DNA from: Linum tenue
Taxonomy: Eukaryota; Streptophyta; Magnoliopsida; Malpighiales; Linaceae
DNA length: 64,000 nt
Reading direction: 5' to 3'
Assembly (NCBI GenBank): GCA_946122785.1
Contig: CAMGYJ010000005.1
Span: 77,432,547-77,496,546, forward strand
Every line of letters starts with the position of its first letter. The first letter of the stretch is position 1. Below are positions 5,378 to 26,574 of the stretch, piece by piece. The notes beneath the pieces are model-generated. The model was given only the letters and a program-made list of their open reading frames with translations. It was not told where the DNA came from and did no database searches. The translations under genes were made by a program, and so were the position numbers.

Positions 5378-5417
5378 GAGGCATTTTAGTGTGCTTTATA
5401 GTATTGGTGCTATAAAA
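5378..5417 (+). repeat. MULE left terminal inverted repeat
   Basis: The 40 bases starting GAGGCATTTTAGTGTGC match the reverse complement of 26535-26574 at about 31 of 40 positions; the shared core is TAGTGTGC followed by TATAG and TGCTATAAAA. Within each end TATAG...CTATA forms a small hairpin-capable inverted repeat. Confidence 0.9.
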
Positions 5418-6014
5418 CATTTACAGCCATTAGATTATGTTCAAACTATATCAACCATAGATTTTATTTAAATTATTAATTTGTTATTTTATTTGTGGGT
5501 GGAGAACCGGTACAACCGGTTGTCTGAAATTTTTTTGCGAATTCAACCTTACACGCAGCCTTCTTCTTACACGAACCCTTCTTCTCACTTCTTCTCACCG
5601 CCGTTTACTCTTCCTTCGATCCTCTTCCTTCGATACTCTCCACGCGAGCCAGATTCTGACGACGACAGTGAAGACGGCGAGCAGTGGGTGACGACGAGTA
5701 GAAGAAGCTTGTCGATTGCAGCATCTCTTTGACTGCGGCGAGCCGGATTCCGACGACGACAGTGAAGGCGGCGAGCAGTGGGTGACGACGAGTAGAAGAA
5801 GCTTGTCGATTGCAGCATCTCTTTGACTGCGGCGAGCCGGATTCCGACGACGACAGTGAAGGCGGCGAGCAGGGGACGACGAGAGCGAGCATCTCTTCGT
5901 CGATTGCAAACGAAGACCCTCTTCCCATCGATAGCAAACGAAGACCCTGCACAGAACCCCCTCTTCCCATCGATAGCAAACGAAGACCTACCTCCTCCAC
6001 TGCAACTTTTTCCG
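5418..6014 (+). promoter_or_regulatory. MULE 5' subterminal region and putative leader exon of the ULP gene
   Basis: The first 120 bases are AT-rich and include an inverted repeat AACCGG-TACAA-CCGGTT near 5506-5522. From about 5540 the sequence turns pyrimidine-rich (repeated CTTCTT) and then GC-rich, as in plant leader exons. A good donor, CCG|GTTAGT, is at 6014/6015. A partner acceptor just upstream of the ULP start codon is at 8281-8282. I infer that this is the promoter and first non-coding exon. No TATA box is certain. Short ORFs here follow the 94-bp repeats and are not convincing genes. Confidence 0.5.
5652..5890 (+). repeat. 94-bp direct repeat, about 2.5 copies
   Basis: Copies start at 5652, 5746 and 5840 with GATTC(T/C)GACGACGACAG and include AGAAGAAGCTTGTCGATTGC. 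The third copy diverges after about 40 bases. The copies are nearly identical, so the expansion is recent. They lie in the presumed leader exon. Confidence 0.9.
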
Positions 6015-8282
6015 GTTAGTATGCCTACAGTTCTACAATTTTATTCAATTTTCCGGTTAGTATGGCTATCAGTTTAGGGATTATATTGGGATGTTCTAGA
6101 TTTACAAATTTCGGTAGGGGGATTGAAATTCCATGCTCGTTTTACCAGATTGAACTATGGAAGTAGAAGAGAGAATTTCTCAATTCTGGGTAACCATTTG
6201 GGATTGAAATTGAAGCTTCTCCACTGCTTTCTTCATGTGCATTCTCAATTGGATATGGTGATATAAGATGCGATATTCCTTTCCCTCTCTCGGTTTTATC
6301 AGTTGTGTGAAGTGGGAATTCTGATGTGCTCCATCTTTTCCAGTGTCTTCTTCTGTGATTTGGTTTGTCTATCTCTTTAGCTTTAACGTCTTGTGCAATG
6401 AGGATTCAGTGTCAACTAGGAAGCTGTCTTGGTTTATATAATCCCATAAACGGTGCTGGGGTTGTTCATTTCGTTGTTGCCTTTGCTTTCAAACTGAAGA
6501 GAATAACTGTGCTGGGGTTGTTCTGCTTGCTTCTTTAGTTCTTTGGTCTTGATTGGGTTTTAGGGATGTAAGGAATGGGTTTGTAGAGTTTACTTAATAG
6601 TCAATTTTTATCTCCCACATCCCACTAGAGTTCGAGTTATTTTCAGGGTTTTTGCTGTTTATAGAGTTAATTCATAGTCAATTTTGCTTCTTTAAGTTTC
6701 TCATATCAGGCCTCAAGGCCGGGAATGAGTTTTATACATCCCTAGACAGATACTGTTTCGAGTTTATCAGGGGAACTAACCTCAGCAAACGACTCAGTGG
6801 TCTTAGGGCTATCAATTTCCCTGATCTTCCGTGACATTTTTTTGTAACATACGTAAATTACTGCTTTCTGAACAATCTCGAATCTTACTTTTACGTCTGT
6901 GAGTCGATTTACACATTGAAGCTTGAAGGGAGAGTTGTGCATGGTTGTGGTTGCCTTGTTGGGTAGTGAACAATTTAATCATGTACCAAAGAGGAAAATG
7001 CTTGTCACCAAGAAAACTCACACTTGGTGAAAGAGCCTAGGAAATAGCATGCATGAACCAAGCAAAGATCATGTGTTCTTTATGTGGTTTTCCACCATAG
7101 CTAAATGCTACCTCATGAAAATGATATCATAAATTAGTTTTGGAAACTTTTTTTGTTTACTTTTTCATAAATGGAAACTCCATTTCACTTGGAAAACCGG
7201 TGTGAGTTGCATGTGTCGAGAGAGCTATTGCCTTGTTGAGTTACATAATCGTCATTCCAAGCATGCAATTCATCTTGTCTTTGTGAGCGCTGGGAGAGGA
7301 GTCCTAATCATGTTCCCATTGTGGTTAAGCTAGCAACTATTTGTAGTATGCTTGTTGTGTGGATGTATTGTAGAAAAGGGTAATCGAAGCATTTGTCTTC
7401 TGTGATTCTTTGCATGAGCTTTGCATTAGTCTTATGTGATTCTTTGCATTCATTTGAGCTTTTTATTTCGTTTGAATGCTGGCTCCGTCTACGTTTATGT
7501 GATTAGTACCTCAGTTTACTATTAGAGCAAGATTGTGATGCAATTGATAGGTTATGTCGTGATTCATCAAGTAAACCTTGGACTTCATCTCCCCATGCTT
7601 AATCATTAGTTCATTCTTACATGCATTCCAGTATTATTTTTCTGATTAGAGATTCATCTGTAATTATGCACTTCTCACAGCTCATCTGTAAATATCACGG
7701 GCGTGAGATTAACCCGTGATATGGTCACAGCTGAAACTCAAAAACACGCCTCACATATGAAAATATCACGGCCGGGAGATGTACCGTTAGATTTTTTTTA
7801 AAAAAGGGGGAGTTCCAGGGGTTTTCACGGGTTGGGTTCGACAGTATCACGGCCGTGAGATGAGCCGTGTTTGTGTAATTGAAATGCTGGACTTCTCACG
7901 GGTGTGAAATTTCAAGAATTAGCCGTGAGAATATTTAGTGGGTGTTTTTAGTTTCACAGCTTATTTTAACGGTCGTGATTTATGAAGCCAAAGCCGTGAG
8001 ATTGTCTGGAGATATGAAAACTTCTCTTTGCTTCTCACGGGTCATGTCACGGCCGTGAGATTTTGCATTTTGGGTGAAATTTAATGAAAGCTGGGTGTTT
8101 TGGGTGAAATTTATATATGCCAATGGCGGATTTCATGGTTAATTAGTGTACTCAGGTGTTGATGTAGGGGGTTTTCAGTTCTTCTGGTAGTTAGAACTTG
8201 TATTTTGTTTGTACTCTTCGGCATGCTTATAATTCGTGTTTCAAGGCATGCTTATAATTTTTCTGTTGTTTTAATTTTGCAG
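6015..8282 (+). other. Putative leader intron of the ULP gene
   Basis: Between donor CCG|GTTAGT at 6014/6015 and acceptor TTTTGCAG at 8275-8282 lies 2.27 kb of AT-rich sequence without convincing coding potential. The ATG at 8303 follows the acceptor by 20 bases. The intron contains the first CACGGCCGTG motif cluster (7686-8063). Apart from that cluster I see no gene, tRNA or transposon structure here. Confidence 0.45.
7686..8063. repeat. CACGGCCGTG motif cluster 1
   Basis: Dense occurrences of TCACGGCCGTGAGA, a palindrome centred on CGGCCG, and variants such as TCACGGGCGTGAGA, CACGGCCGGGAGATG and GCCGTGAGA. They are interspersed with a conserved linker containing AAGGGGGAGTTCCA and TTTCACGGGTT. 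The same linker-plus-motif order occurs in clusters at about 11.8-12.3, 17.6-18.0, 20.4-20.9 and 24.5-24.9 kb. None is found outside the MULE. Confidence 0.9.
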
Positions 8283-8302
8283 TTTGCTAAAATTGTTCTA
8301 TA

Positions 8303-11300
8303 ATGAAGACGAAGAGGCATCAAATTTTCAGCACGCGATGTTCTCCTAGGAAAGTATTCTCAGTAGTCTCAAATTTAGAGGCTTGTCAATCAGATGCCAT
8401 TAGGAGATGTGGCTTTGGTCGTATTCTTGAAGTCAAAGCAAGAAAGCTACAACGTGAGTTGTTGGAGAAACTTGTGAAGAGCTTTAATCTGGAAGAAAGC
8501 ACAATTAAGGCGTATGGGTTGGAAGTGCATATTTCGGCCAAAGATTTCGAGCGAATTATGGGTGTGCCTGAGGGAGGTACTGATATCATCTTGAATGGTG
8601 AAGAAGTGGAGGGAAGATCAGAGGAACTGGAACCATTTAGAGTGTTTTCGACACGTGAATGTGGCCGACGGGCGATTTTCACAAGCTTAATGAAGAAGGA
8701 GTTGTCGAAGATGAAAGATAGCGACGATCTATTTCTTCAAATGTTTATTTTGTACGTAATGGGGGTGCTATTAGTACCAACTAGAAGAGAGGACATTTCC
8801 TTGTCTTCGGTATACGCTGTCACCGATGTTGCAGACATTCCGAAGAAGAATTGGGCATCCTTTTGCTTCAATGAATTGGTCAAATGCATCTGCGACCATA
8901 ATGCTTATAAAAGAGAGTATATACCGGGTTGCTTGCTGTTTTTGGAGGTAAATAATTGCTAATCCCGACTTTCTACATATTTGTAATGATTAATCATCAT
9001 GTTGATTATAGTATTTTTTTTTGTAGTTAATATTCTTGGAGCATGCAAATGGTATTTTCCAAACCGTTGATGGGAGTTTGGATTTGATGAGTTGGGGGAG
9101 CGGAGACGTGGAGTTATTGTTAACAAAAGTGGTAAGATTGATAGTATATTTGATTCTTTTGACAAGTTGGAGCATGCTAATGGTACATTTGGTTCCCTTT
9201 TTAATTAATTTATAGGTTTCCAGCAGTTCGGGGAAAAGATCAGCTGAGGATGCCGGTTTGAAATCACCTCCAAGGAAACGGGGAAAAAGAGATGGGAAAG
9301 GGCACAAACCCGACGGGGATGAGCTGCTTCTCTATGAGCGTATTGATGCTCGGTTTAGTACCATGGAGGGTAGAATTGACAACTTTGGTCAAGAATTTAG
9401 AGTGGCAATGGGTGATGCTGCTTCTAGAGATAATGAGCTAATGAGCCGGGTTGTGAAAATGGAGAACGAATTTCGGGCTTTTAGAGACGAAATCGGTACT
9501 GCAGTGAAGTCCCTTATAGAGGCAGTGAAAGCAACTGTAGGTGATCCGTTGTCAAGGGAGCAGCCTAGGGAACCCATTTCTCCTACAGCTGAGTTGAAAA
9601 AGAACGATCAGAAGGGTGAGGTTGAAAAACCTAGGGAACCCATTTCTCCTACCTTGGAATGTGTCAAGACTGCCAAAGTTGAGAATTCGGGAGAAGCTGA
9701 GGGGGAAATTGGAGATGAGAGATGTTCTGAATCTCCTTCTGTGAAAGTTGTGAAAAAGTCTCCTTGCAAGCAGCCTAAAGCGTCGCAAGTTGAGAAATTC
9801 ATATTGTTGAGTGATGAAAGTGTTGCTGCTAATGATGGTTGTTCCAAGGCTGTGAAGGTATTTCACTTGATTAATTTTTCTAATTATTGGTTCTTGTGGT
9901 GTGGTTACTAATGAACTGGTTTTGTTTTTATGTTTTTGAACATGAAAGGGGCGAAAGGGAGGTGCACTACGTAGTGTGTCTAAATTGAAGCCTAGTTTGT
10001 ATGTGCTCTCTCCATTCGAACGGGCAAATCCCAGAGCTAAGAAAGCACAACCTTTGTACCGTGCTCCTCCCTTTGTTGTTGAGACACCATTGACTCTGGA
10101 GGCAGTAAAGATGCTTCAATTTGCTTTTAGTAGTGAGCTTCCCGAAAGGTACCTCCCGAAATCATTACAAGTAAAATTGGATAATATTTGTAGGATGTTT
10201 TTGGTATTTGCTTATTCTAATGTTGTGTTGTTTGAACTTGGTATTGTATAACAGTGACACATTGGTTAGTGTTGGTGGCGGGGTTCTTTCCTTGTCACGT
10301 GAAGATTTTGTCGAGCTTTTGCCAAGGACCAAAATTTCAACAAGGGTAAGTTCATTTATGTGTGTAATTTAGTAGATTGAACGTGTATTGCTGACTTTGG
10401 TATATGTGATGATGATGCATTAGATTATAGAAATGGCGTGTCTGTGCAAGACACTAGAAGAACGGAGTTGTGGTCGCAGTGGTGGCTTGTCTTGGTTCTT
10501 TCCACCTTCAGTTTCGGTACAGTTGTCTGCTTTGTCTATTCTTGTCATGAAATTAATCTCTTTTTTGTTACATGTAGCTTGTGTGGGTGACTGTGTTTTA
10601 TTTTTCTAGGAGCGTGCGAGTCATTGCAATGAGGAGCAATTTATGGCTAAGATGCGTTCATATAAGATAGTTGAGCGATACTGTATTGGTGAGCTACTTT
10701 ACTGCAGTAAGGTATGTTGTAATGTTGTTTTCTAAAAGGAAATGGCTTCACCCTCCTATGTTAAATTGATAATTATTGTTTGTTTGTCCATTATTTCAGA
10801 TTCATGTCCCAATTTTCAACCTCACGTTGAAGCACTTCTATCTGGCGGTCTTTAACATGGAAGCCAAAGAAATTGAAATCTGGGACTCATTACGAGGAAC
10901 TCATAATGAAGAATATGATGCAAGGATGCAGAAACTGGTTTGCTTCTTGTTCTTCAAGTTTTCAAGCTTTACTTATTGCTTAGTTGTTAGTTGTTTTTCA
11001 TTTGCCGACTTTGTCGTTATATATCGATGAGGTGGATGTTTTCATTTGCAGAAATTGGGTCTAGATTGGTTGCTTAAGGATGATATCTGTGGGGCGTTTT
11101 CATTTGTGGACTTCGTGGTTAGATATCGCCAGGATGTTGCTTGCCAACCAAATGGGTACCCTTTGTTGTTGTTCAATCGTGCACTGTTCTAATTAAGTTC
11201 GATAATTATCTGTTCGCATCATGACCATGATAATTATTTGTTATATTACAGATTTGATTGTGGACTATTTGTCATCAATTACTTGCTGGATCCAGATCGA

Positions 11301-11552
11301 TATTCCAAGAAGCTTGACCAGTTCCATAGTGACTATGAGCGGGCACAACTTACAATGTACTTGCTCACTACGGATCTGAATGAGGTGAAAGCTACAGTTA
11401 AGACACAATCCGATGAATATTTTGAGAGACATGCAAGACCTGCCCAAATTGAGACGGAGAAGGTGAATTTCAAGACAAACTTACTCAATCGGGGAAGAAA
11501 GCCGTTGCATGCGCATGGGGAGAAAAAGGGTAGAAAGTCTAAGAAGCATTGA
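8303..11552 (+). CDS. ULP1-like (C48) SUMO-protease-type protein of the MULE
   Basis: This gene encodes a cysteine protease of the Ulp1/SENP type, which cleaves SUMO or related isopeptide bonds in hosts. Predicted exons: 8303-8947, 9027-9131, 9216-9857, 9949-about 10200, about 10258-10345, 10424-10516, 10610-10711, 10800-10937, 11052-11155, 11252-11552. All listed junctions keep frame with GT-AG sites except exon 4/5, which I could not place exactly. The N-terminal 250 residues resemble the domain that precedes Ulp1 domains in plant transposon proteins (GFGRILEVKARKL, SAKDFERIMGVPEGG). A charged, lysine- and proline-rich linker follows. The catalytic domain shows KHFYLAVF (His codon 10833), IWDSL (Asp codon 10884) and CQPNGFDCGLFV (Gln then Cys codon 11259), so the catalytic set is intact. 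The C-terminus is basic. It is the first gene of the MULE, upstream of the transposase on the same strand. Role in transposition or silencing escape is inference. Confidence 0.88.
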
Positions 11553-11565
11553 GACTTGTGATGTT

Positions 11566-11665: not shown

Positions 11666-11821
11666 CTGTTGAAATTGCAATGACGTAATGAATGAAGCAT
11701 TATTCAGTGATGTTATTTTTTCTCTATATTATGTTTAATGTGTCGACAAGGTAAAAATTATGCATGATCATATACCGAAAAATGGTTGAAAATGGACCTG
11801 AAAGCAGGCGTGTTTTTGGAT

Positions 11822-12270
11822 TTGTAATTCTGGAAATATCACGCCTGTGAGATAGGCCGTGAGAGAGACCGTGAGATTTTTTCCATACAAAGGTGGAGTT
11901 CCAGACAGTTTCACGGGTTGTCTGCGACAGTATCACGGCCGTGAGATGAGCCGTGTTTTGGATATGAATGATGGTCATCTCACGGCCACTTTGTATGTTG
12001 TCATGGGCGTGAGACTTGGCCGTGAGATGGGATTTTATAACGGCTTAATGATGGTAATTTTACGCCCGTGAGACTGGGGCTTGAGATTCAAAAAACCTGA
12101 ATCTCACGGTCTTGAAAGGACCATCTCACACCCGTGAGATTCCAGAAAGTTTCACGGGTTGCCTTCGACAGTATAACGGCCGTGAGATGAGCCGTGTTTT
12201 GGATATGTATGATGGACATCTCACGGCCACTTTGTAAATTCTCATGGGCGTGAGACTTGGCCTTGAGATT
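11822..12270. repeat. CACGGCCGTG motif cluster 2
   Basis: The second motif cluster lies 270 bases after the ULP stop. It contains several TCACGGCCGTGAGATGAGCC blocks, two copies of the TTTCACGGGTTG linker and inverted arrangements such as TCACACCCGTGAGAT. It shares TTGTAATTCTGGAAATATCA with clusters 3 and 5. Its right edge abuts the 81-bp array. Confidence 0.9.
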
Positions 12271-12284
12271 CAAAAAATCATTCC

Positions 12285-13605
12285 CTATTATCGGTTTTGG
12301 GTTGAACCCCATGTAATTGTGAACCGATGTGAGATTGAGGTTATGTATATGGTTGAATGAGCGTTTGATTATCGGTTTTGGGTTGAACCCCATGTAATTG
12401 TGAACCGATGTGAGATTGAGGTTATGTATATGGTTTAGCGAGCGTGTGATTATCGGTTTTGGGTTGAACCCCATGTAATTGTGAACCGATGTGAGATTGA
12501 GGTTATGTATATGGTTTAGTGAGCGTTTTATTATCGGTTTTGGGTTGAACCCCATGTAATTGTGAACCGATGTGAGATTGAGGTTATGTATATGGTTGAA
12601 TGAGCGTGTGATTATCGGTTTTGGGTTGAACCCCATGTAATTGTGAACCGATGTGAGATTGAGGTTATGTATATGGTTGAATGAGCGTGTGATTATCGGT
12701 TTTGGGTTGAACCCCATGTAATTGTGAACCGATGTGAGATTGAGGTTATGTATATGGTTGAATGAGCGTGTGATTATCGGTTTTGGGTTGAACCCCATGT
12801 AATTGTGAACCGATGTGAGATTGAGGTTATGTATATGGTTTAGTGAGCGTTTTATTATCGGTTTTGGGTTGAACCCCATGTAATTGTGAACCGATGTGAG
12901 ATTGAGGTTATGTATATGGTTGAATGAGCGTTTGATTATCGGTGTTGGGTTGAACCCCATGTAATTGTGAACCGATGTGAGATTGAGGTTATGTATATGG
13001 TTGAATGAGCGTGTGATTATCGGTTTTGGGTTGAACTCCATGTAATTGTGAACCGATGTGAGATTGAGGTTATGTATATGGTTGAGTGAGCGTTTGATTA
13101 TCGGATTTGGGTTGAACCCCATGTAATTGTGAACCGATGTGAGATTGAGGTTAAGTATATGGTTGAGTGAGCGTTTTATTATCGGTTTTGGGTGTAATTG
13201 TGAACCGATGTGAGATTGAGGTTATCTATATGGTTTAGTGAGCGTTTTATTATCGGTTTTGGGTAGAACCCCATGTAATTGTGAACCGATGTGAGATTGA
13301 GGTTATGTATATGGTTGAATGAGCGTGTGATTATCGGTTTTGGGTTGAACCCCATGTAATTGTGAACCGATTTGAGATTGAGGTTATGTATATGGTTGAA
13401 TGAGCGTTTGATTATCGGTTTTGGGTTGAACCCCATGTAATTGTGAACCGATGTGAGATTGAGGTTATGTATATGGTTGAATGAGCGTGTGATTATCGGT
13501 TTTGGGTTGAACCCCATGTAATTGTGAACCGATGTAGATTGAGGTAATTGATATATGGGTTGATTTGCGTTTGATTATGGTTTTGGGTTAACCCATCTAA
13601 TTATA
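12285..13605. repeat. 81-bp tandem repeat array, about 16-17 copies
   Basis: GGTTGAACCCCATGTAATTG recurs at exact 81-bp steps from about 12303 (for example 12303, 12384, 12465) to about 13507. One truncated copy is near 13190 and a degenerate final copy lies at 13550-13605. Each unit also has GTGAACCGATGTGAGATTG and GGTTATGTATATGGTT. Because 81 is divisible by 3, the minus strand stays open for 344 codons, but this is a by-product of the repeat. The array separates the ULP gene from the transposase leader. Confidence 0.96.
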
Positions 13606-13639
13606 ACCGATGATTTTTTTGGGTTGGTCATAATGAAGA

Positions 13640-14740: not shown

Positions 14741-14750
14741 TTGATCAACT

Positions 14751-17377
14751 ATGGAAGGGTTGATGGATGATATGAGCACAGGCAAGGACACGGGAAATGA
14801 CTTGAATGTTGGTTTAGATTGGGGAATGAATTATGGAGATGATACCGGTGGTGTTAGAGATAGTGACGATATGAAGGACAATGTCGACACCAGCGATAGT
14901 GATTCTGAGGATGATAATAACACTAACATTGGTGATGATGATAAAGAGAACATCTCAGATGAGCATTTGCACAGCTTCGAAACACAGCCACACAGCTCAG
15001 AGAACATCAAAGATGCTGCAAATCCAGCCATGGTTCCACCGTACTCGAGTATGTATGACTGGACTTTGCTTGATAAAGTCGGGAATGGTAAGCCTTATTC
15101 TAAATGGGAGTCGGATGATGTTGTGGGTTATGAGTTTGAAACCCTTGAGGAGGCTGGCAAGTTCTATTCAACTTATGGTTGTGCCATGGGGTTCAGCGTA
15201 CGAAAGAACACTCACACATATTCAAAATATGGAGTTAAAAATATGCAGCGATGGGTTTGCTCACGCGAGGGGGAGCGTCTTCCAGTCCACAATGACAAGG
15301 AGAACAGAAAGCGTGAACCTAGGCCTGTAACAAGGCTCCATTGTCCGGCTGCTTTCAAAGTCAGTTTTGTTGAGGCAACTAACCGATTCAAGGTGAAGCA
15401 GTTTGTACCAACACATTTTCATCCCTTAGCTGGAGCACATGAAGTGCAGTTTTTGAGTTCTCATCGCAAGGTAGATGACGCAAGTAAGGCTCAGATTCGA
15501 TCACTTAGGGCTGCTGGTATTCGCACCAATCAAATCATGGATTATCTAGTGAATTGTGCAGGAAGCTTTCAGAACTTGGGTTTCACTAAGACCGATGTCT
15601 ACAATTTTGTTAGTGCGGATCGGAGGTCGGAGATCTTGGATAGTGACAGTGAAGCTGCACTTGCCTACTTACAAGCACGGGCAACTACCGATCCTCGTTT
15701 TTATTGTAGATATACAGTAAGTGACGGTGGTGAACTAGGCAATATGTTATGGGCTGACTCTCCTTCACAATTGGATTATAGTCTCTTTGGAGATGTTCTT
15801 GTTTTTGACTCGACGTACAAGACTAATGCATATAATCTTCCATTTCTTCTATTCATTGGTGTGAATAATCACAATGCAAGCACTGTTTTTGCATGTGCTT
15901 TACTTGCGGATGAAACGGCGGAGAACTACGTATGGATTCTAAATGCTTTTTTACATTGCATGGGTGGTAAGAAGCCAACCGCAGTTATAACAGACGGTTG
16001 TTCTTCAATGAGGAAAGCTATCAAGTCGGTTCTCCCTGGATCCCGACATCGGTTATGTTCTTGGCACTTGGGCAATAACGCAGAAGCGCGTGGCCATGCG
16101 GAAGGCTTCCGGGAGGATTTCAAACGATGCATGCTAAACTGCAGTTCTATTCCACAATTTGAAGCTACGTGGAAGGAAATTTTGTCCAAGTATGACCTGG
16201 AGCACAATGCGTGGATGAAGAAGATGTATAGGCGACGAGCTCTATGGGCCACAACTTACTTGAAAGGTATTTTCTTTGCTGGGATGACTACCTCACAACG
16301 TTGTGAAAGCATGAACTCTTATCTAGACAAATTCTTGCAAAGTAAGATGAAGTTGTTTGAGTTTGTCAAGCAGTTTGACATGGCACTTTTGTATAGGAGA
16401 CAAACTGAGTTACATGACCAGTTTAAGACAATACATACTGATGTTGTTTTGATGACACATTTACATGAAATTGAAAGACATGCCTCTATAGTATATACAA
16501 GAAATGTGTTCAGGAGCGTTCGAGCAGAAATAGCGAGAGAAGTTCATTACTATATTACAGACAAGTGTGTGTTGACCAATAAAACAGTTTACACATTGTC
16601 ACGATTCAAATACCCTGACTCAAAGTGCACCGTGGTATTTTACACGAGTGGACATGATGTGCATTGTTCTTGTGGCATCTTTGAGTTCTGCGGAATTCCA
16701 TGTCGGCATATATTCTGTATATTGAAAGCAGAAAATCAAATGCAAATTCCAAAATCACTCATTTTGATGCGTTGGACTAAAGATGCAAAAGAGTTCGATC
16801 CCTCGAGTATGGGAAGCTGTCCTACCCAGCAAAATATTAGCAGGTATTATAAATTTAAGGTGTTCATTTAGTTCTTTGTTTACTTCTATTGTGCTTGGAA
16901 CCAACTACAAAAGTGCTTGTTTATTTGGACAGGTTTGGATTCTTGGTTGGTCAATGTAGTAGAATGTGCCATTATGCTGTGAGTTCGGATGAAGCATTTC
17001 ATACTGCCAAAGGGTTGATTGAAGACTTGACATTGCGAGTGAAGACAATAAGTGAAGAATCAACCAACAAAACAAATAATGCTACTACGGATGTTGGAGT
17101 GAACTCCTCTCAGTTTATTAAGGACCCCCATCCAGTTCGAAGTAAAGGGAATGTGAAGCAACCTCAAGTGAAAACACGGTTGTGCAAGTATTGTAGGCGT
17201 CCTAAACATACAATCAGAAATTGTCCGCTGAAAAGAATGGCTGAAGCAGGTGGAGGTGATAGTCATTTCACGCAACAAGAATACAACTTCGAGTCCATAG
17301 GAGCAGGTGAAAGCAGCTTTCATGTGGAGACTCAAGAATCTGTTCTACTTCCCAAACGATCCAAGCACAACCTGTAA
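14751..17377 (+). CDS. MURA-type (FAR1-related) MULE transposase, 845 aa
   Basis: The transposase of the element, a DDE/RNase H-fold recombinase expected to bind the terminal repeats and cut and join DNA in the nucleus. There are two coding exons, 14751-16843 and 16933-17377; the intron splits an Arg codon and joins in frame. An acidic N-terminus (residues 1-115) precedes a FAR1-type zinc-binding domain (about 126-225: GYEFETLEEAGKFY, WVCSREG, RLHCPAAF, HFHPL). The MULE catalytic core follows: D353 in VFDSTYKTN, D415 in VITDGCSSM, CSWHL, and E519 in SQRCESMN. A SWIM finger is at 639-653 (CSC...CRH), and a CCHC knuckle at 782-795 (CKYCRRPKHTIRNC). All key residues are present with no stop or frameshift. 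Host FAR1/FHY3 regulators share this architecture, but position within terminal repeats and a 9-bp duplication argue for a true transposase. Confidence 0.95.
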
Positions 17378-17465
17378 TGCTGGTGTTCGACTTCAAACTA
17401 CATTATGTTTCATCTTGTAATGTTTGTTTTGTGCAAGTTAGTATCTAGTGACATTGAATGACTCA

Positions 17466-17672
17466 GCTTTTCATAAGCTTGTAGTTTTCAAAAACAGTAT
17501 ATTATGTTACTTACGCCATTATAATAAGTACAAGGGTTAGTCTACAGGTAAATGTCTGTGCAGACTATTTCTGGAAATCTCACGGCCAATTCTGGAAATC
17601 CCACGGCCGTGAAAGAAGGCGTGTTTTTGGATTTGTAATTCTGGAAATATCACGGCCGTGAGATAGGCCGTG
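17466..17672 (+). repeat. Duplicated 3' module, copy 1 (about 207 bp)
   Basis: This stretch starts TTTTCATAAGCTTGTAGTTT, about 90 bases after the transposase stop, and runs into motif cluster 3. It matches 24435-24642 nearly base for base, including TGTCTGTGCAGACTATTTC. It may carry a shared 3'-end or polyadenylation region, but no clear AATAAA is present. Confidence 0.9.
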
Positions 17673-17975
17673 AGAGTGACCGTGGATTTGTAATTCTGGA
17701 CATCTCACGGCCCTCTGTAAATTCTCACGGGGCGTGAGACTAAGGCGTGAGATAATCCCAGCTGAAATCCAAAATCACGCCTCATAAATGAAATCTCACG
17801 GCCGGGAGATGTACCGTGAGATTGTTTTCATAAAAAGGGGGAGTTCCAGAGAGTTTCACGAGTTGGCGTCGTCATTACCACGGCCGTGAGATAAGCCGTG
17901 TTTTGGATATGAATTCTGGACATCTCACGGCCCTCTGTAAATTCTCACGGGGCGTGAGACTAAGACGTGAGATTA
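17578..17975. repeat. CACGGCCGTG motif cluster 3
   Basis: The third cluster follows the transposase gene. It contains palindromes CACGGCCGTG, the linker AAGGGGGAGTTCCA and repeated TCTCACGGCCCTCTGTAAAT blocks (near 17705 and 17927). It overlaps the duplicated 207-bp module and runs into a CCC-rich leader-like stretch. Confidence 0.9.
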
Positions 17976-17984
17976 ACCCTAGAA

Positions 17985-18160: not shown

Positions 18161-18251
18161 GATCAAACTTTCCAAGTTCGATACAATCCTTGGACAAGGA
18201 ATGCAGCAAAGAGATGGAGATTGCAAAACCCTTGACCAAGGTTGTATCTAG

Positions 18252-18320
18252 CTTGGAAAGTTGGATCTTTCCGGTATCACCCCAGCTCCAAGGGGAGTTA
18301 CAAAAGTGGAGATTGAACAG
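18252..18320 (+). pseudogene. Captured HSP70 fragment 1
   Basis: Twenty-three codons read LGKLDLSGITPAPRGVTKVE and three more. This matches the start of the HSP70 substrate-binding domain, where LLGKF(D/E)LxGIPPAPRG is conserved. The fragment joins directly to carboxypeptidase sequence in another frame. It is far too short to function. Upstream (18163-18250) is an inverted duplicate of the same CTTTCCAAG...CCTTGG sequence. Confidence 0.72.
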
Positions 18321-19009
18321 GGTAGGCTTTATCTTGCTAAGCTTTGCAGTGCTAGTGGCGCACTCTGCTCCTCAAAATGCTCTCGTGAGTCAGCTTCCCG
18401 GCTACTCTGGCTCTTTCCCTTCCAAGCACTACTCCGGGTATGTTCTCCTTCCACAAGTGGTTTTTGCTAGTCTCAGTTGGTTTTATGTTCTCTGTACTGG
18501 GTTTCTTACGCCCTGTTCACTTTCATTTTCGTTTCCTGTTTTCTGTTTTCATGTCATAAATTTGACAACAGAAACGAGAAACTTGTTTACTTTTCATTCG
18601 GTTTTCTATTCGTTTCCAACTATGAAAACAGAAAGTGGCAACTTCCTGCTGTTTTCGGAAACGAAAAAATGTTGTTTTCACCTGTTTTCAACATCTGTTT
18701 TCTCAAAAACAGGAAACAGAAATGAAAGTAAACAGGCCCTTAGGTCCCTGGAATTCTGGAAATGGGGTGCTTAGAAATGGGGTTATGCTGTTTGTGTTCT
18801 TGTTCGATTGGGAGTAATGGGCTTTCTCTGTTTTTGGTCTTTTCTGGGTTTGGCTTTTGAAAGGTATGTGACGATCAATGAAGCGACAGGGAAGAAATTG
18901 TTCTACTATTTGGTCGAATCGGAAGGGAACCCATCAAAGGATCCTCTGGTTCTTTGGCTCAATGGTGGCCCTGGATGCTCCAGCTTCAATGGGTTTGTGT
19001 ATGAACATG
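18321..19009 (+). pseudogene. Captured serine carboxypeptidase-like (SCPL) gene fragment
   Basis: Two exons with an intron survive. Exon 1 (to 18437) encodes a hydrophobic signal-peptide-like stretch, then APQNALVSQLPGYSGSFPSK. Exon 2 (18864-19009) encodes [20 protein letters not shown] and [20 protein letters not shown], the SCPL substrate-binding region. The exons join in phase across GG|G. Everything after this, including the catalytic Ser (GESYAG), Asp and His, is absent, so it cannot be an active peptidase or acyltransferase. An ORF from 18190 runs through HSP70-derived DNA into exon 1 but reads HSP70 out of frame. This is typical MULE gene capture with the intron retained. A MITE sits in the intron. 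Confidence 0.88.
18509..18739. mobile_element. Tourist-like MITE in the captured SCPL intron (231 bp)
   Basis: The ends are inverted repeats: the left begins CGCCCTGTTCACTTTCATTT, and the reverse complement of the right begins GGGCCTGTTTACTTTCATTT, extending about 35 bases. TTA flanks both sides (18506-18508 and 18740-18742), as expected for PIF/Harbinger insertions. It has no coding capacity. It may have entered before or after capture. Confidence 0.82.
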
Positions 19010-19021
19010 GTATGGTTAATC

Positions 19022-19385
19022 CCAATTGGACATGAGTGATTGTTTAAGACATTTAGTGCAGCTTGATTATAGTTGAAACATTGATCTGTCAGAACTCAGA
19101 AGTAATTGTCACAAGACTTTTTGTTTCTGTTCTTTGTTTCTAAAACGAGAATGGGACTGAAGATTGCTTGTTAAATTGACTGTATAATGCAGTGTCTGAT
19201 TTTGGCTCAAAATGAAGAGCTTACTGTAACATCATCAAAAGGGTTCAATTTGTAACCTAAGTGAGCATTGACAGGGTTCTGACTGATCATGATGGTGTAG
19301 ACGTGATTGAAATGCTCCAGGGATCATCTACCTTTACGTCACATTGAGTATTCCACCTCATCGATCTCTAAGGAAGGAAGCAAGG
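19022..19385. other. Unassigned sequence between captured fragments
   Basis: I see no coding similarity, repeat or RNA gene in this stretch. It may be part of the captured carboxypeptidase second intron or filler sequence. Confidence 0.4.
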
Positions 19386-19651
19386 ACAACAAACTTTCCA
19401 AGCTCGATACAATCCTTGGACAAGGAATGCAGCAAAGAGATGGAGATTGAAATATAGAGAGTGATTGAAATACAGAGAGATCGAAATACATAGAGAGAAG
19501 TTTTGAGTGGGAGGGATGCAAAACCCTTGACCAAGGTTGCATCTAGCTTGGAAAGTTTGATCTTTCCGGTATCACCCCAGCTCCAAGGGGAGTTACAAAA
19601 GTGGAGATCGAAGAGGATGGAATACTCAAAGAGACGTCAAGGGAGAAGTCC
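19386..19651 (+). pseudogene. Captured HSP70 fragment 2 with inverted-repeat leader
   Basis: Positions 19547-19651 encode 35 codons starting LGKFDLSGITPAPRGVTKVE and continuing EDGILKETSREKS, an HSP70 substrate-binding-domain fragment. It ends at donor GTAAGT. The preceding 19388-19546 repeats 18163-18251 but carries about 65 extra bases (AGAGAGTGATTGAAATACAG...). Its CTTTCCAAGCTCGATACAAT is inverted relative to CTAGCTTGGAAAG near 19543. Intact TTTGAT and longer coding make this the less degraded HSP70 copy. Confidence 0.75.
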
Positions 19652-20395
19652 GTAAGTCGTTCTTAATTTTTCTACTGGATTATCTTGGTTTGGTGATAGC
19701 CTAGAATTTGACTGATTGTTGCGTTTGTGTGATTTGTTCTTTGAATTTGACAAAAGTTTGTTCTTGTTTTTGTGATGTTGTGGTGTGCTTGTAAGCAAGA
19801 AGGTAGTATGTATTGAAGAAGTAGAGTTTTTGTATATCTAACTATTGTTGTGTTTAAGAAGAGGGAAGTGCAGGGGAGAAGAAGAAAAGGAAGTGGATCC
19901 TCGTGGGTGAGAAGAAGATGATCAATCTGGTTTCCCTCTTGGTGGAGAAGGGAAGGAGAAGAAGAAATGATAGAAGCACGTTTAGAGGAGGGAAGGAAGT
20001 ATCAGGAAGAAGTCTTTGTTTTGAGGGAGCATAGGAATCTGGAAGAGGAAGAAGAAGAATTTCCCCTGTCTCTCCCCATCTCTGTTTTTTTTTGCAGAAA
20101 TTCATCTGTGTAAAGAAGAAGAGAGGAAGAAGGAGCTCTCCTTTCCTCTGCTTTTTTCGTTTGGATGAAGTAGGAGAGGCGATGTTGTGGAAGAACAAGG
20201 GAAATGGATAGGCCTCCTTCCCATGAATTTGTGTTATATATGTATGTTCAATTTCTTTTCTACAAATCAATTGCAATGTACTCCATAACTCTAATGATCA
20301 AATATTGATCTTCTCTTCGATTGTGGGTGGCTAGATGGATATATCTAGTTATTGTTGTTTTTTGTTCTTAGATGGAAACCTCACTGCTTGTAATT
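19652..20395. other. Purine-rich non-coding stretch
   Basis: After the HSP70 donor there is intron-like sequence, then 19858-20210 is rich in GAAGAAG/GAGGAAG runs. The minus-strand ORF here is low complexity. No recognisable gene. Confidence 0.5.
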
Positions 20396-20397
20396 AA

Positions 20398-20870
20398 ATT
20401 GTCACGGGCGAGAGAATAGGCCATGATATGGAAATCACTCCCAATTTCACGGCCGTGCGAGAAACCGTGAGATGGAAATATCACGGCCGGGATAAGGAGA
20501 CGTGAGATGGAAATATCACTCCCAATTTCACGGCCGTGCGAGAGACCGTGAGATGGAAATATCACGGCCGGGATAAGGAGACGTGAGATGGAATATCACT
20601 CCCAATTTCACGGCCGTGCCAGAGACCGTGAGATGGAAATATCACGGCCGGGATAAGGAGACGTGAGATGGAAATATCACTCCCAATTCACGGCCGTGAG
20701 ACTAAGACGTGAGATGTTCACAGCTGAAATCCAAAAACACGCCTCATAACTGGAATCTCACGGCCGGGAGATGTACCGTGAGATTGTTTCCATAAAAAGG
20801 GGGAGTTCCAGAGAGTTTCACGGGTAGGCGTCGATATTATCACGTCCGTGAAATGGGCCGTGAGATTGGA
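20398..20870. repeat. CACGGCCGTG motif cluster 4, with internal 81-bp tandem repeat
   Basis: Its left half consists of about 3.5 tandem copies of an 81-bp unit (starts 20434 and 20515, then about 20595 and 20675) with ATCACTCCCAATTTCACGG and TATCACGGCCGGGATAAGG. The right half is the usual linker (AAGGGGGAGTTCCA, TTTCACGGGTAGGCGTCG). It lies just before the ATHILA-like gene leader. Confidence 0.92.
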
Positions 20871-20899
20871 AGTTTAAAAACTAACCTATGCATATTAGA

Positions 20900-21694: not shown

Positions 21695-21696
21695 GA

Positions 21697-24158
21697 ATGG
21701 GGAAAGCTAAACCAAAAACCCGGCAACCAGCAGCCTCACCTGCTAAAAGGAAGGCTCCTTCTTCTCGTCGCCGGCAAACCCAAGAACGAGACACTCCCCC
21801 CAAACGACAACGCAAAAACAACCAAGGACGGGCACGCCAACCATCTCCACCACCACCACAAGCGGAGGCTCAACTTGGAGGAGGGAGACTTCACGGCTTC
21901 CTCCAATTACCCGTCGAACATAGGAAGGCTTTGGAGCGCTTCCTTCCCCTCCCATTTGGGCAGCAAAGATGCTTTGATTGGGATCTCCTAGAGCGCCTCG
22001 GAGCAGCGGACCCCGTTCGCACATGCCTCCGTCTCCCGGCATGGTGTGAGGTTCTCTCCATCAATGAGGTCATCTACCGAGAGCTTACCATTGAGTTCCT
22101 CAGCACTCTCTCCATCAAGAGAATGTCCGAGTTTAGCCTCGACAAGCCCGAAGACAACATAACTTTTCGCCTTGGAGGACAGGCGAGACAGATGAGCATC
22201 ACTGAGTTCACAGAGGCACTCCAGATATACCCACCAGGATTTCTCACCACAGGTGGACATGGTTTTATTTCGGAGCAAATATATCATTCAAGAGCACAAT
22301 CGGTCAATGATATGTGGAAAACGGTAAAACAAAAACATGTGGACAAGTCTGACCCTGCCCACTATAAAGGGAATGATCTTCTTCCCCCGTGGCGTATCAT
22401 CCACAACATTATCGCTCATTCTGTGGCAGCTAGGGATGGGAGCCCGGGGAGTGTGACCAAGCGGGATTTGAACTTTTTCCTCTCTATGGTAAAAGATCCC
22501 CCAATTCATCTTGGTATAGTCATATTGAAAACCCTACAGAAGATGACCTCCAACAAACAAATCAAGACCATCCATGGAGGTGCCTACATCACAAGGCTAG
22601 CTCGGCATTTTGGCATTGATCCGGTGGGTTCTCATTGCACCATTGCCCAGTCCACTCAACCAATCTCCCAAAAAAACCTTGCGGATCTAAATTTGTTGTC
22701 AAAGGTAAATGTTCCAACCAACACTTTCTTTTTCACAGTGAATGCTAAAACATAACTAGTCGGGATTCAAACAATCTAGGATTGATTTTGTGCAAGTTTT
22801 GGATTGCCTACTAATCTAGTTCCTTTTGAACATTGAGCAAATGTAACTAATGCTTCTGATATTGATCATGTCTGTGTTTGGTGGTTAAGGAGAATGGTGT
22901 GGTAGGCATTGTTGGCCTCCCTCATCCTGCTCGACCTCTTGCAACAGATGAGGCAAACGCATCGGAGCATGTTGTTCAGCAAATGGTCGAGGAGACTCCG
23001 GAACAACCTGCACAACATCACCAAACTACGACTCAAGCCGGACCATCCACCGACAGCTACATATCCCATTTTGAGGCATTGGGTCGGCAGAATGCCCAAA
23101 TTCTGGAGCAAAATGCACTCATTCTCTCCCGCCTCGATCGAGAGAAGGAAGCTCGACGCTACATCATCGAATGCAACCATCAGATCATGAGGTCCTTGAG
23201 GATTGACTACGAACAATTCTCAAGACCTTGGGAACTATCTCCTAGGCCAACCGAGGAGATCAATGAAGAGGGAAGTGAAGAGGATGACGAGGGTAATGAC
23301 GATGAGCAAAACAAGGAAAAAAATCAAGAGGACATAGGAGAGGAACAAAACAAGGAAAGCAGTGAAGAGGACAATGACACCAATGAGGAAGACAGCAGTG
23401 AAGAGGACGACGACGAGGGCAATGGCGATGACCAAAACAAGGAAAAAAATCAAGAGGTCAAAGGGAACGATGAGGAAGACAGCAGTGAAGAGGACGACGA
23501 CGAGGGCAATGGCGATGACCAAAACAAGGAAAAAAATCAAGAGGAGAAAGGAGAGGAACAAAACAAGGAAAGCATTGAAGAGGTCAAAGGGACCGATGAG
23601 GAAGACAGCAGTGAAGAGGACGACGACGAGGACAATGGCGATGACCAAAACAAGGAAAAAAATCAAGAGGAGAAAGGAGAGGAACAAAACAAGGAAAGCA
23701 GTGAAGAGGACAGTGACACCAATGAGGAAGACAGCAGTGAAGAGGACGACGACGAGGGCAATGGCGATGACCAAAACAAGGAAAAAAATCAAGAGGAGAA
23801 AGGAGAGGAACAAAACAAGGAAAGCATTGAAGAGGACAAAGGGACTGATGAGGAAGACAGCAGTGAAGAGGACGACGACGAGGGCAATGGCGATGACCAA
23901 AACAAGGAAAAAAATCAAGAGGAGAAAGGAGAGGAAAAAAACAAGGAAAGCATTGAAGAGGACAAAGGGACCAATGAGGAAGACAGCAGTGAAGAGGACG
24001 ACGAGGGCAATGGCGATGACCAAAACAAGGAAAAAAATCAAGAGGTCAAAGGGACCAATGAGGAAGACAGCAGTGACTCTAGCGAGGACAATGAAGATGA
24101 GCAAATCCAGGAAAACAAAGACGAGGACGAGAACACTAACGAGAAAGATGGGCAGTGA
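21697..24158 (+). CDS. ATHILA ORF1-like protein with acidic repeat tail, 758 aa
   Basis: Two coding exons, 21697-22704 and 22890-24158, joined in phase 0 across GTAAATG and TTAAG acceptor. I chose the ATG at 21697 because it directly follows a splice acceptor. Residues 1-60 are basic and nuclear-localisation-like (KAKPKTRQP, PPKRQRKNN). Residues about 70-336 resemble the ATHILA ORF1 / putative plant transposon protein domain: VIYRELTIEFLSTLS, ITFRLGGQARQMSITEFTEA, GGAYITRLARHFGI. A predicted helical segment (QNAQILEQNALILSRLDREK) follows. The last 300 residues are Glu/Asp/Lys/Asn tandem repeats. Its biochemical role is unknown; the domain is best known from Ty3/Gypsy Athila elements. No reverse transcriptase or other retroelement part is nearby, so the ORF appears captured or domesticated by the MULE. 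Both exons are free of stops. Confidence 0.72.
23262..24090 (+). repeat. 126-bp coding tandem repeat (acidic tail)
   Basis: The unit encodes 42 residues, beginning EDSSEEDDDEGNGDDQNKEK and continuing NQEEKGEEQNKES. Shorter units lack the second half. About seven units are present and nearly identical at DNA level, so they can expand or contract by recombination. The opposite strand and another frame stay open only because of the repeat. Confidence 0.93.
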
Positions 24159-24434
24159 AGATGAGCCAACCAAAGTCCTTAGTACTTAGCTATGTGTGTT
24201 TGCTTTTGTGCTTGTATGTTTTCCAATTAGAATATTATGATGCACCAGTGTGGGCTACATGCATCTAAACTTAAGCATTAATCGTGTTATGGATGTTTGT
24301 TTTATAAGACAAATGTAAAGCTTTGACTGCTTTTTACTTTTTGTTAACAGGGTATCTCATCTGATATGATGTACAGTTACTAGAGAAGGATCTATGTAAT
24401 GCTCGTGTCAAGCTTCAAAGAACATTATGACTCA
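24159..24434 (+). other. 3' flank of the ATHILA-like gene
   Basis: AT-rich sequence after the stop. No clear polyadenylation signal or additional gene. It leads into the duplicated 3' module. Confidence 0.4.
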
Positions 24435-24642
24435 TCTTTTCATAAGCTTGTAGTTTTCAAAAACAGTATATTATGTTACTTACACCATTATAATAAGTAC
24501 AAGGGTTAGTTGTACAGGTGCATGTCTGTGCAGACTATTTCTGGAAATCTCACGGCCAATTCTGGAAATCCCACGGCCGTGAAAGAAGACGTGGTTTTGG
24601 ATATGTAATTCTGGAAATATCACGGCCGTGAGATAGGCCGTG
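24435..24642 (+). repeat. Duplicated 3' module, copy 2
   Basis: Near-identical to 17466-17672 over about 207 bases, in the same orientation and likewise downstream of a gene stop. Differences are scattered substitutions such as TTACACC for TTACGCC. Confidence 0.9.
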
Positions 24643-24865
24643 GATGTAAAAACGCACGTCTCAGTTTCCCAGAGGGTTTCACGGGTTGCCTTCAACATTA
24701 TCACGGCCGTGAGATGAGCCGTGTTTTGGATTTGAATGATGTACTTCTCACGGCTCATCTGTTTATTCTCACGGGCGTGAGAATAAGTCGTGTGATTGTC
24801 TGGAGATTGAAAACTACTCTTTGATTGTCACGGGTCATGTCACGCCCGTGAGATGAGCCGTGTTT
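24540..24865. repeat. CACGGCCGTG motif cluster 5
   Basis: The last cluster overlaps the duplicated module and continues with TTTCACGGGTTGCC, TCACGGCCGTGAGATGAGCC and TCACGGGTCATGTCACG. The final block resembles the end of cluster 1 (GTCTGGAGAT, CACGGGTCATGTCACG). It passes directly into the GGTACAAC array. Confidence 0.9.
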
Positions 24866-26440
24866 CCTAAAAATTGTACCTACACTTTCTAGAGTTGTAC
24901 CTTTACACTAAATTTAAAGTTGTACCTACACTTTCCTAAAAATCTTCTATGGTACAATTAAAAATTGTACCTATACACTATAGTACAACTTAATGTTGTA
25001 CCTACACTTTCAAACAAATCCTTCTATGGTACAACTCAAAATTGTACCTATACTAATGGTACAACTTTTAGTTGTACCTACACTTTCTCAAAATCCTTCT
25101 ATGGTACAACCCAAACTTGTACCTATACCATGGTACAACTTTAAGTTGTACCTACACTTTCTAAAAATCGTTCTATGGTACAACCCAAACTTGTACCTAT
25201 ACCATGGTACAACTTTAAGTTGTACCTACACTTTTTCAAAATCCTTCTATGGTACAACCCAAACTTGTACCTATACTAATGGTACAACCTTAAGTTGTAC
25301 CTACACTTTCTAATAAATCTCTTATGGTACAACTCAAAATTGTACATATACTAATGGTACAAATTTAAGTTGTACCTACACTTTCTAATAAATCTCTTTA
25401 TGGTACAACTCAAAATTGTACCTATACTGATGGTACAACTTTTAGTTGTACCTACACTTTTTCAAAATCCTTCTATGGTACAAACCAAACTTGTACCTAT
25501 ACTATGGTACAACTTTATGTTGTACCTACACTTTCTAACAAATCCCTTTAAGGTACAACTAAAAATTGTACCTATACGAATGGTACAACCTTAAGTTGTA
25601 CCTACACTTTCTAACAAATCCCTTTATGGTACAACTAAAAATTGTACCTATACTAATGGTACAGCCTTAAGTTGTACCTACACTTTCTAAAAATCGTTCT
25701 ATGGTACAACCCAAACTTGTACCTATACCATGGTACAACTTTAAGTTGTACCTACACTTTTTCAAAATCCTTCTATGGTACAACCCAAACTTGTACCTAT
25801 AATATGGTACAATTTTAAGTTGTACCTACACATTCTAATAAATCCCTTTATGGTACAACTCAAAATTGTACCTATACTAATGGTACAACTTTAAGTTGTA
25901 CCTACACTTTCTAATAAATCTCTTTATGGTACAACTCAAAATTGTACCTATACTAATGGTACAACTTTTAGTTGTACCTACACTTTTTCAAAATCCTTCT
26001 ATGGTACAACCCAAACTTGTACCTATACTATGGTACAACTTTAAGTTGTACCTACACTTTCTAAAAATCCTTCTATGGTACAACCCAAAATTGTACCTAT
26101 ACCATGGTACAAATTTAAGTTGTACCTACACTTTCTAACAAATCCCTTATGGTACAACTAAAAATTGTACCTATACTAATGGTACAACCTTAAGTTGTAC
26201 CTACACTTTCTCAAAATTCTTTAATGGTACAACCCAAACTTGTACCTATAATATGGTACAATTTTGAGTTGTACCTACACTTTCTAATAAATCCCTTCAT
26301 GGTACAACTCAAAATTGTACCTATACTAATGGTACAATTTTAAGTTGTACCTACACTTTGTGAAACAAATTCTTCAATGGTACAGCTGAAACTTGTACCT
26401 ATACTAATGGTACAACTTTAAGTTGTACCTACACTTGTAT
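24866..26440. repeat. GGTACAAC/GTTGTACC palindrome array (about 76-bp period)
   Basis: About 20 tandem units of roughly 75-77 bases. Each has two near-palindromes: GGTACAACTT-TAAGTTGTACC type and GGTACAACTCAAAATTGTACC type (each about 21 bases). CTACACTTTCTAA and CCTATACTAATG link them, so a palindrome occurs about every 38 bases. The array occupies the right subterminal part of the MULE. Short plus-strand ORFs within it are artefacts. Confidence 0.95.
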
Positions 26441-26534
26441 ACATTGATTCATTATTTACAAGATTGCCATTAATGATGTGGGACCAGTCATTTAGTGGGT
26501 TTACCTCCTCAACAAGTCACCTTTTTTTTTTGTT
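26441..26534. other. MULE right subterminal segment
   Basis: Unique sequence between the palindrome array and the right terminal repeat, ending in a T-rich run. No gene. Confidence 0.6.
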
Positions 26535-26574
26535 TTTTATAGCATGGGTGCTATAGAGCACACTAGAAGGGCTC
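26535..26574 (-). repeat. MULE right terminal inverted repeat
   Basis: Reverse complement begins GAGCCCTTCTAGTGTGCTC and aligns with the left end at about 31 of 40 positions. It also contains TATAG...CTATA. The 9-bp duplication follows immediately. Confidence 0.9.

Follow-up and report, generated by a model that had tools for sequence, protein, structure and literature searches.

Mutator-like elements (MULEs) that carry ULP genes have been described in Arabidopsis, melon, rice, and grape (PMC13317346, PMC2528002), and some VANC genes carry an Ulp1 domain (KIU) and induce hypomethylation of related elements (PMC13317346). VANC21 binds a short motif, and the targets of VANC proteins, in which DUF1985 and DUF287 have been marked, are tandem repeats in noncoding DNA (Hosaka 2017, PMC5735166); the regions affected by VANC6 contain AGTTGTCC or AGTTGTAC (PMC5735166). 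Here we describe an element of Linum tenue that appears to combine similar components with another type of transposase. It occupies positions 5378-26574 of the window, a 64-kb stretch of contig C5 (77432547-77496546) from an assembly of 692 Mb in 17 contigs, and contains a gene with an Ulp1 domain (gene 1), a FAR1-type transposase gene (gene 2), a third gene (gene 3), noncoding stretches rich in short dyad motifs, and a slot for captured host DNA. We regard it as somewhat better than an even chance that the product of gene 1 is a VANC-like anti-silencing factor, which would bind the dyads in the element's own noncoding DNA and help a giant FAR1-type MULE to spread. This reading is proposed because gene 1 encodes Ulp1, the noncoding DNA is packed with repeated motifs, and one of these, AGTTGTAC, equals the AC-type motif of VANC6.

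The KI-MULE/KIU VANDALs of Arabidopsis likewise join Ulp1 to a VANC-type gene and have three genes and noncoding motifs, but they lack terminal inverted repeats, and the ULP gene of KI-MULE is reversed relative to the transposase (PMC13317346, PMC2528002), whereas the Linum element is about 20 kb long and shows 40-bp end repeats and a FAR1-type transposase, with the ULP gene located upstream of the latter in the same orientation. The VANC21/VANC6 system (PMC5735166, PMC10398659) resembles the element in its tandem noncoding motifs, including the identical AGTTGTAC, but belongs to Arabidopsis VANDALs of another MULE group; in the putative Linum system, the DUF1985 match is marginal. Jittery-like MULEs of group 36 share the FAR1 start, the SWIM/CCHC end, and end repeats from 39 bp (PMC6446971), and some grape Jittery-like families also carry ULP (PMC2528002). 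They differ in being listed with a single open reading frame and 8-bp or no stated target duplications, with the grape ULP lying downstream of the transposase (PMC6446971, PMC2528002), while the element has three genes with ULP upstream, duplications of 9-10 bp, motif arrays, a slot, and a length of about 20.5 kb.

As to size, the Jittery-like Jitvine families of grape measure 11.9 and 14.4 kb, and grape MULEs reach 16.2 kb (Mutavine-18) and 17.7 kb (PMC2528002). Mutavine-18 is similarly large, has end repeats, and is marked as including ULP-1, but its end repeats measure 230-263 bp, no duplication is stated, and counterparts of gene 3, the motifs, and the slot are absent from the excerpted description (PMC2528002). 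The barley MULE Abermu likewise has three frames, mostly duplicates 9 bp at its target, and has moved recently, but it measures 8.2 kb, has end repeats of 138-145 bp, and contains one reversed frame (PMC9168764). A review of giant transposons sets the threshold at 20 kb and names no MULE that large in its available part (PMC6431247), and the excerpts of accounts of flax transposons (PMC3544724) and flax satellites (PMC6391757) do not mention the family. Among open-licence papers, we did not find the combination of Ulp1 and a VANC-like system with a FAR1-type transposase, a length of about 20 kb, a third gene, and a slot. A first-pass annotation of the window had suggested a previously undescribed family; no description of the family was found in those papers, while ULP-carrying MULEs as such were already known.

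Results

A complete element in a satellite array

The left end of the element begins with GAGGCATTTTAGTGTGC at 5378, the right end closes with CACACTAGAAGGGCTC at 26574, and a perfect 9-bp target duplication directly adjoins both (Table 1). The end repeats of the window copy agree in 31 of their first 40 bases. This likeness is not beyond chance (local score of 22 over 300 bp, compared to a mean of 16.2 and a maximum of 28 in 200 shuffles); the ends are therefore assigned from the duplication and the other copies, because the repeat score alone lies within the range of the shuffles. If the flanks are joined via a single copy of the duplication, the resulting 800 bp align to another stretch of the satellite with 98.1% identity and no gap, the empty site thus being deduced from other satellite units and not from an insert-free allele. 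The perfect duplication and the recurrence of the ends bear out the first-pass annotation in placing a full MULE with perfect boundaries inside the satellite, and the gapless match does so for its claim that the empty site is a normal monomer. Both features of the MULE class are present, namely a PF10551 domain and target duplications within 8-11 bp.

A family of large copies

A DNA search with the transposase, in which the best 40 of 151 first-look candidates were scored, yielded at least 40 full-length matches including the window, a lower bound on the copy number. The expected ends were inspected for all 39 other copies, which are spread over ten contigs, an end being called recognisable at an alignment score of at least 30 of 60. 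Both ends were found in 37 of the 39, with end-to-end lengths of 19,271-21,941 bp (median 20,509), and a perfect target duplication in 32 (9 bp in 23 and 10 bp in nine copies), leaving seven without one. All 32 duplications differ from each other and contain 71% A+T. Among 35 left flanks of 300 bp, just one similar pair occurred, from which it follows that most copies were likely placed by transposition rather than by regional duplication; segmental duplication as the origin of the family was rejected on this basis. Including the window copy, this Mutator-like DNA transposon, which has a FAR1-type transposase, is present in at least 38 end-to-end copies 19-22 kb long; the family is real, very large, and apparently young. 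The earlier suggestion of a family of giant ULP-carrying MULEs, recognisable by common ends, 9-bp duplications, and lengths of 15-25 kb, is supported by these counts.

The left ends of the 39 other copies fall into a window-like type I (13 copies) and a type II (22 copies), with four uncalled. The end repeats of type II match at 32 of 40 positions, so neither type shares the lack of terminal inverted repeats seen in KI-MULE. The 5' leaders differ according to left-end type, with a median identity of 45% between types and an identity of 67% between the window and type I, whereas the final 137 bp on the right have a median identity of 98.5% (38 rows). In each of the eight loci examined, including the window, the transposase has an uninterrupted first exon, with 0-4 differences per 2,121 bases, a figure biased toward the closest copies since these were the best-scoring loci.

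Two copies were read through, the window copy and copy 1 (C9:41376491-41397184), which was read whole. In copy 1, gene 1 is open and differs at 27 of 2,469 bases (exon identities of 97-100%), gene 2 is open and differs at four of 2,556 bases, and gene 3 differs at 12 of 1,008 bases in exon 1 and contains one stop in exon 2. The differences comprise 18 replacement and nine silent sites in gene 1 and 11 replacement and one silent site in exon 1 of gene 3, which indicates no clear constraint at the protein level between the two copies. A block at 14676-17460 is 99.86% identical, with noncoding parts elsewhere being 93-99% identical or unalignable, and may have been homogenised by recombination between lineages. 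The high identity of the transposase was dropped as a sign of selection, since the copies were chosen by transposase score and the 99.86% block includes the intron and flanks.

Gene content

All gene models were predicted from the DNA, with exons chosen by hand. The first-pass annotation had listed three long reading frames, and stop-free models of 822, 851, and 758 amino acids were indeed obtained for them. Gene 1 lies within the MULE ends in the window and is also present in copy 1. Its Ulp1 (C48) domain (PF02902) is clear, with E 3.2e-10 and 40.7 bits against a cut-off of 20.7, and the end of the protein aligns with human SENP1 (E 1e-4) across the catalytic region, covering what we take to be the catalytic His, Asp, Gln, and Cys.

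The product of gene 2 shows a FAR1 domain (E 1.1e-15), a MULE domain above cut-off (PF10551, E 6.3e-28), a SWIM match slightly below it (18.2 bits against 19.6), and a CCHC knuckle near 17182-17224, the spacing of which was judged by eye. The features of the FAR1-type group, a FAR1 N-terminus and a SWIM or CCHC C-terminus, are thus present. Its 84 relatives reach at most 49% identity, and those that are named are nearly all plant FAR1-RELATED SEQUENCE proteins or transposases, one relative being fungal. Upstream of the transposase start, the 39 bases at 14607-14645 are identical to transposase coding positions 16324-16362; the same was seen at C10:41615499.

Gene 3 gives a PF20167-like match (E 2.7e-5, 24.6 bits against a cut-off of 45). 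Its unspliced frame 21697-22755 (352 amino acids) shares 90% identity with a protein of Linum trigynum that is 358 amino acids long, and the exon join is uncertain because that protein reads through the donor and ends without the acidic tail. PDB sequence searches with gene 3 and with exon 1 of gene 1 gave no match, and structure predictions were unusable (mean predicted local distance difference test scores, pLDDT, of 32.5 and 35.5, respectively). A fold common to these two parts is not claimed, the probability in a profile comparison being 0.2.

An Ulp1 domain occurs in the same gene model as the transposase in ten of the 84 gene 2 relatives, all from Citrus; nine of these share a contig and are possibly isoforms. 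These Citrus FAR1-RELATED SEQUENCE models with Peptidase_C48 (P0001, P0008, P0043) resemble the element in the order of a gene 1-like start, Ulp1, and FAR1-MULE, but are annotated as single fused proteins and were compared as gene models only. In P0043, the start matches gene 1 at 36% over 84 amino acids and is followed by Ulp1, FAR1, and MULE, and P0008 has the same order with a short match at the start. Transposase identity to gene 2 is 46% for P0001, P0002, and P0003. In a tree of 36 rows, comprising the query and 35 of the 84 relatives (two of the ten Citrus rows among them), trimmed to the transposase and limited to FAR1-type relatives, gene 2 falls into a six-row clade with P0043 and P0001 (support 95/93). 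The pairing of genes 1 and 2 may thus be older than the flax lineage, Citrus being the sole source for this suggestion.

Dyad motifs in the noncoding DNA

Motifs were counted on both strands, so that the full palindrome CACGGCCGTG scores two. The element contains 45 CACGGCC, 40 CCGTGAGA, and 41 AGTTGTAC, compared to maxima of 5, 3, and 5, respectively, in 100 dinucleotide-chain resamplings, and none of the three occurs in its 7,302 coding bp or elsewhere in the 64-kb window. Six noncoding stretches carry the dyad motifs: five blocks adjoining the genes hold 44 of the 45 CACGGCC, and the array next to the right end holds 40 of the 41 AGTTGTAC. The six stretches recur in unchanged order in copy 1, with totals of 52 CACGGCC, 44 CCGTGAGA, and 50 AGTTGTAC; 50 of the CACGGCC of this copy are in the five blocks and two outside, and no motif lies inside the gene spans. 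Short motifs repeated in the noncoding DNA of the same element, a feature of VANC systems, are thus observed in two copies. The right-end stretch holds 3-49 AGTTGTAC in 39 copies (median 37), the first ten stretches being shorter than the whole array and two copies with an unmatched end being counted over the entire stretch; across all flanks the motif occurs twice. AGTTGTAC is the third most frequent 8-mer of the element, in which 77 of the 32,896 8-mers reach at least 15 occurrences.

Relative to expectation, CpG reaches 0.94-1.21 in the blocks and 1.28 in the 81-bp array, compared to 0.63-0.67 in the genes and 0.09 in array F. CpG transitions account for 0 of 19 one-letter variants of CACGGCCGTG, one of 76 of CACGGCC, and five of 98 of CCGTGAGA; CACGGCT occurs 17 times.

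Cargo slot and other features

The slot lies between blocks C and D, and eight loci share the upstream stretch ending in CGGCCGCCATG. Three contents were found in these eight: the serine carboxypeptidase-like piece of the window (one locus), a piece starting with ATGATCGTGGAGCGC (six loci), and one starting with ATGAGCAAGGGACCA (one locus). The window piece (Pfam S10, E 3.9e-22) agrees with the captured host gene fragments reported in the first-pass annotation. It also occurs at C5:83471737-83472227 and C11:17239960-17240451 with 97-99% identity, in both cases without the nested 240-bp element, and no third locus covers the whole piece among the 55 matches listed (best 40 of 621 candidates scored). 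Judged from these alignments, a host gene piece was likely copied into the slot with its intron, and one of the two loci is likely its source; the 240-bp element, which recurs at 37 other places with 95-98% identity among the best 40 of 621 candidates, either landed after the capture or came from another allele. The element shares the captured host piece with Pack-MULEs, but not their absence of an own transposase, as gene 2 is open. A likeness of an MSKGP-starting piece in the slot of locus L005 to a VDAC porin is not claimed (Pfam E 0.15, nothing in PDB).

Instead of the four kinds of internal repeat counted earlier, at least five are present: arrays of 94-bp, 81-bp, and 75-bp units, the coding repeat, and the five dispersed CACGGCC blocks. 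A minus-strand frame at 12088-13221 (377 codons) spans much of the 81-bp array, whose unit length is a multiple of three. The satellite can also be read with a 309-bp period, equal to two units. It is adjoined by two frames at 60291-63120, which probably form one host gene and the second of which encodes an exostosin GT47-type domain (Pfam E 2.7e-35).

Table 1. Positions of features in the window (or on the contig named), with strand where assigned.
Feature	Position	Strand	Remarks
Satellite, 154/155-bp units	143-47524		Interrupted at 5378-26574
Target duplication GTGATTCTT, left copy	5369..5377		9 bp; direct reading
Target duplication GTGATTCTT, right copy	26575..26583		9 bp; direct reading
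Left terminal inverted repeat	5378..5417	+	31/40 against right end; type I
Right terminal inverted repeat	26535..26574	-	
94-bp array	5644-5883		
Motif block A	7650..8070		5 CACGGCC
Gene 1	8303..11552	+	822 amino acids, 10 exons; PMD/DUF1985-like start (weak), Ulp1 (C48) end
Gene 1, exons	8303-8947, 9027-9131, 9216-9857, 9949-10196, 10255-10345, 10424-10516, 10610-10711, 10800-10937, 11052-11155, 11252-11552	+	
Motif block B	11790..12290		7 CACGGCC
81-bp tandem array	12287..13612		16.5 copies
Gene 2, transposase	14751..17377	+	851 amino acids; exons 14751-16861, 16933-17377; FAR1, MULE, SWIM (slightly below cut-off)
Motif block C	17450..17980		11 CACGGCC; start 95% identical to start of block E
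Cargo slot	18164..19746	+	Serine carboxypeptidase-like piece in window; other contents in other copies
Small inverted-repeat element	18505..18744		240 bp; inside captured piece
Motif block D	20400..20880		13 CACGGCC
Gene 3	21697..24158	+	758 amino acids; exons 21697-22704, 22890-24158; PF20167-like part, then acidic repeats
Coding repeat	about 23290-24076		
Motif block E	24420..24870		8 CACGGCC, 1 AGTTGTAC
Array F, unit of about 75 bp	24870..26440		40 AGTTGTAC; 9 full dyads GTACAACTTTWAGTTGTAC
75-bp array	24917-26436		
Close gene 1/gene 3 pairs	C7:53654679/53660193, C7:53702872/53696983, C6:51606872/51613069		5.5-6.2 kb

Discussion

In the mechanism proposed here, the transposase would cut and paste the element, and the protein from gene 1, perhaps together with that from gene 3, would bind dyads of the form CACGGCCGTG or GTTGTACC. 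Binding would strip silencing marks over the element, with the Ulp1 part possibly cleaving SUMO-like proteins at the dyad-bound chromatin, and host exons may be picked up in the slot between the transposase gene and gene 3. As the Ulp1 part of gene 1 is clear and the DUF1985 part marginal, we put this mechanism forward as the best-supported guess.

Several observations weigh against a VANC-like role. The likeness of gene 1 to VANC proteins derives from domain matches and published descriptions, not from VANC sequences, and the matches of its first exon to PMD (E 0.0016, 18.1 bits against a Pfam cut-off of 34.9) and DUF1985 (E 0.049, 14.1 bits against 35.1) fall short of the thresholds. DUF1985 did not appear in the scan of the whole gene 1 protein, neither domain did so in the scans of two Citrus relatives, and a protein search with gene 1 gave no relative at E 0.001 among 7,995 candidates. 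VANDALs are placed in MULE group 45 and Jittery-like elements in group 36 (PMC6446971), and the three Rubus/Xanthoceras rows in the clade of gene 2 have no Ulp1 among their listed domains. The agreement of AGTTGTAC with the VANC6 motif could be a coincidence, with a chance of about 0.2% per motif, or 1-2% if all six published variants are considered. The element lacks the second VANC6 motif, AGTTGTCC, and contains that of VANC21 a single time. The CpG content provides no evidence for protection from methylation, because the motif-free 81-bp array is rich in CpG as well, and was dropped as support for unsilencing. Finally, neutral repeats would likewise be expected to stay out of coding DNA.

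A large but otherwise ordinary MULE is a less likely, though still substantial, possibility: the motif stretches would be neutral repeats generated by slippage or unequal exchange, and genes 1 and 3 would aid transposition or do nothing. Such an origin would fit the variable lengths of the stretches between copies (3-49 AGTTGTAC), the pieces that the blocks share with one another, the stop in exon 2 of gene 3 in copy 1, and the replacement and silent changes in genes 1 and 3, which reveal no clear constraint. It accords less well with the six stretches being in place in copy 1 although its 5' leader differs from that of the window, and with gene 1 being open in both copies read through.

A more elaborate form of the anti-silencing proposal appears doubtful to us. 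Here, gene 1 and gene 3 would each read one set of dyads and jointly unsilence the 20 kb, the slot would swap host exons behind an apparent promoter, and the whole system would have originated within FAR1-type MULEs, independently of the VANDALs of Arabidopsis, and converged on the VANC6 word AGTTGTAC. It is also improbable that the dyads are binding sites of the transposase itself, pairing the ends of a very long element. While the dyads would suit a dimeric binder and array F stops 138 bp short of the right end, the window copy has no motif-bearing tandem array near its left end, and the CACGGCC blocks are located deep inside the element next to the genes.

The searches with genes 1 and 3, which covered the best 40 of 147 and of 154 candidates, respectively, and leave room for unlinked copies, bear on the question of whether the 21 kb are a single element. 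Known copies account for 25 of the best 40 gene 3 matches, all in the orientation of the copy and at a distance of 14.5-16.3 kb from its left end; 15 known copies have no gene 3 among the matches listed, including copy 1, which does contain the gene. Of the best 40 gene 1 matches, 21 fall within known copies, again in the orientation of the copy; seven, located elsewhere, are partnered by gene 3, and the other 12 are unpaired among the matches listed. Beyond the known copies, gene 3 is accompanied by gene 1 at 12.7-13.1 kb in four cases and at 5.5-6.2 kb in three, and the other eight gene 3 matches lack a gene 1 partner among the matches listed. The three close pairs are likely transposase-less derivatives, since they leave no room for a transposase gene, and perhaps arose by recombination between motif blocks. 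It is very improbable that several elements, each bounded by ends of its own, are nested here, the finding that the first-pass annotation had said would overturn its view. On the side of a nest, a 222-bp direct repeat brackets the slot together with gene 3, a genuine nested insertion (the 240-bp element) sits at 18505-18744, the partnerless matches exist, and two gene 3 matches (C11:14826-15833 and C11:22055-23062) lie on the same strand 7.2 kb apart, too close for two full-length elements. Against it, the outer ends recur in 37 of the 39 other copies, the 25 copies with a listed gene 3 are consistent in its strand and offset, the 21 with a listed gene 1 are consistent in its strand, and inverted repeats of at least 25 bases reveal no inner pair of ends besides that of the 240-bp element (inner target duplications were not searched).

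If the proposed self-unsilencing by a gene 1 product binding the element's own dyads is true, VANC-like systems would span more than one transposase group, and a second, easily tested pair of protein and motif would be available. Elements of about 20.5 kb are present at dozens of places in the genome of L. tenue despite the presumed poor mobility of long DNA transposons, for which the review of giant transposons cites a significant drop in movement above 6 kb of cargo (PMC6431247). The slot has three different contents among eight copies, one of them with a likely source still present in the genome, and would allow a copy-by-copy study of how a transposase-bearing element captures host sequences.

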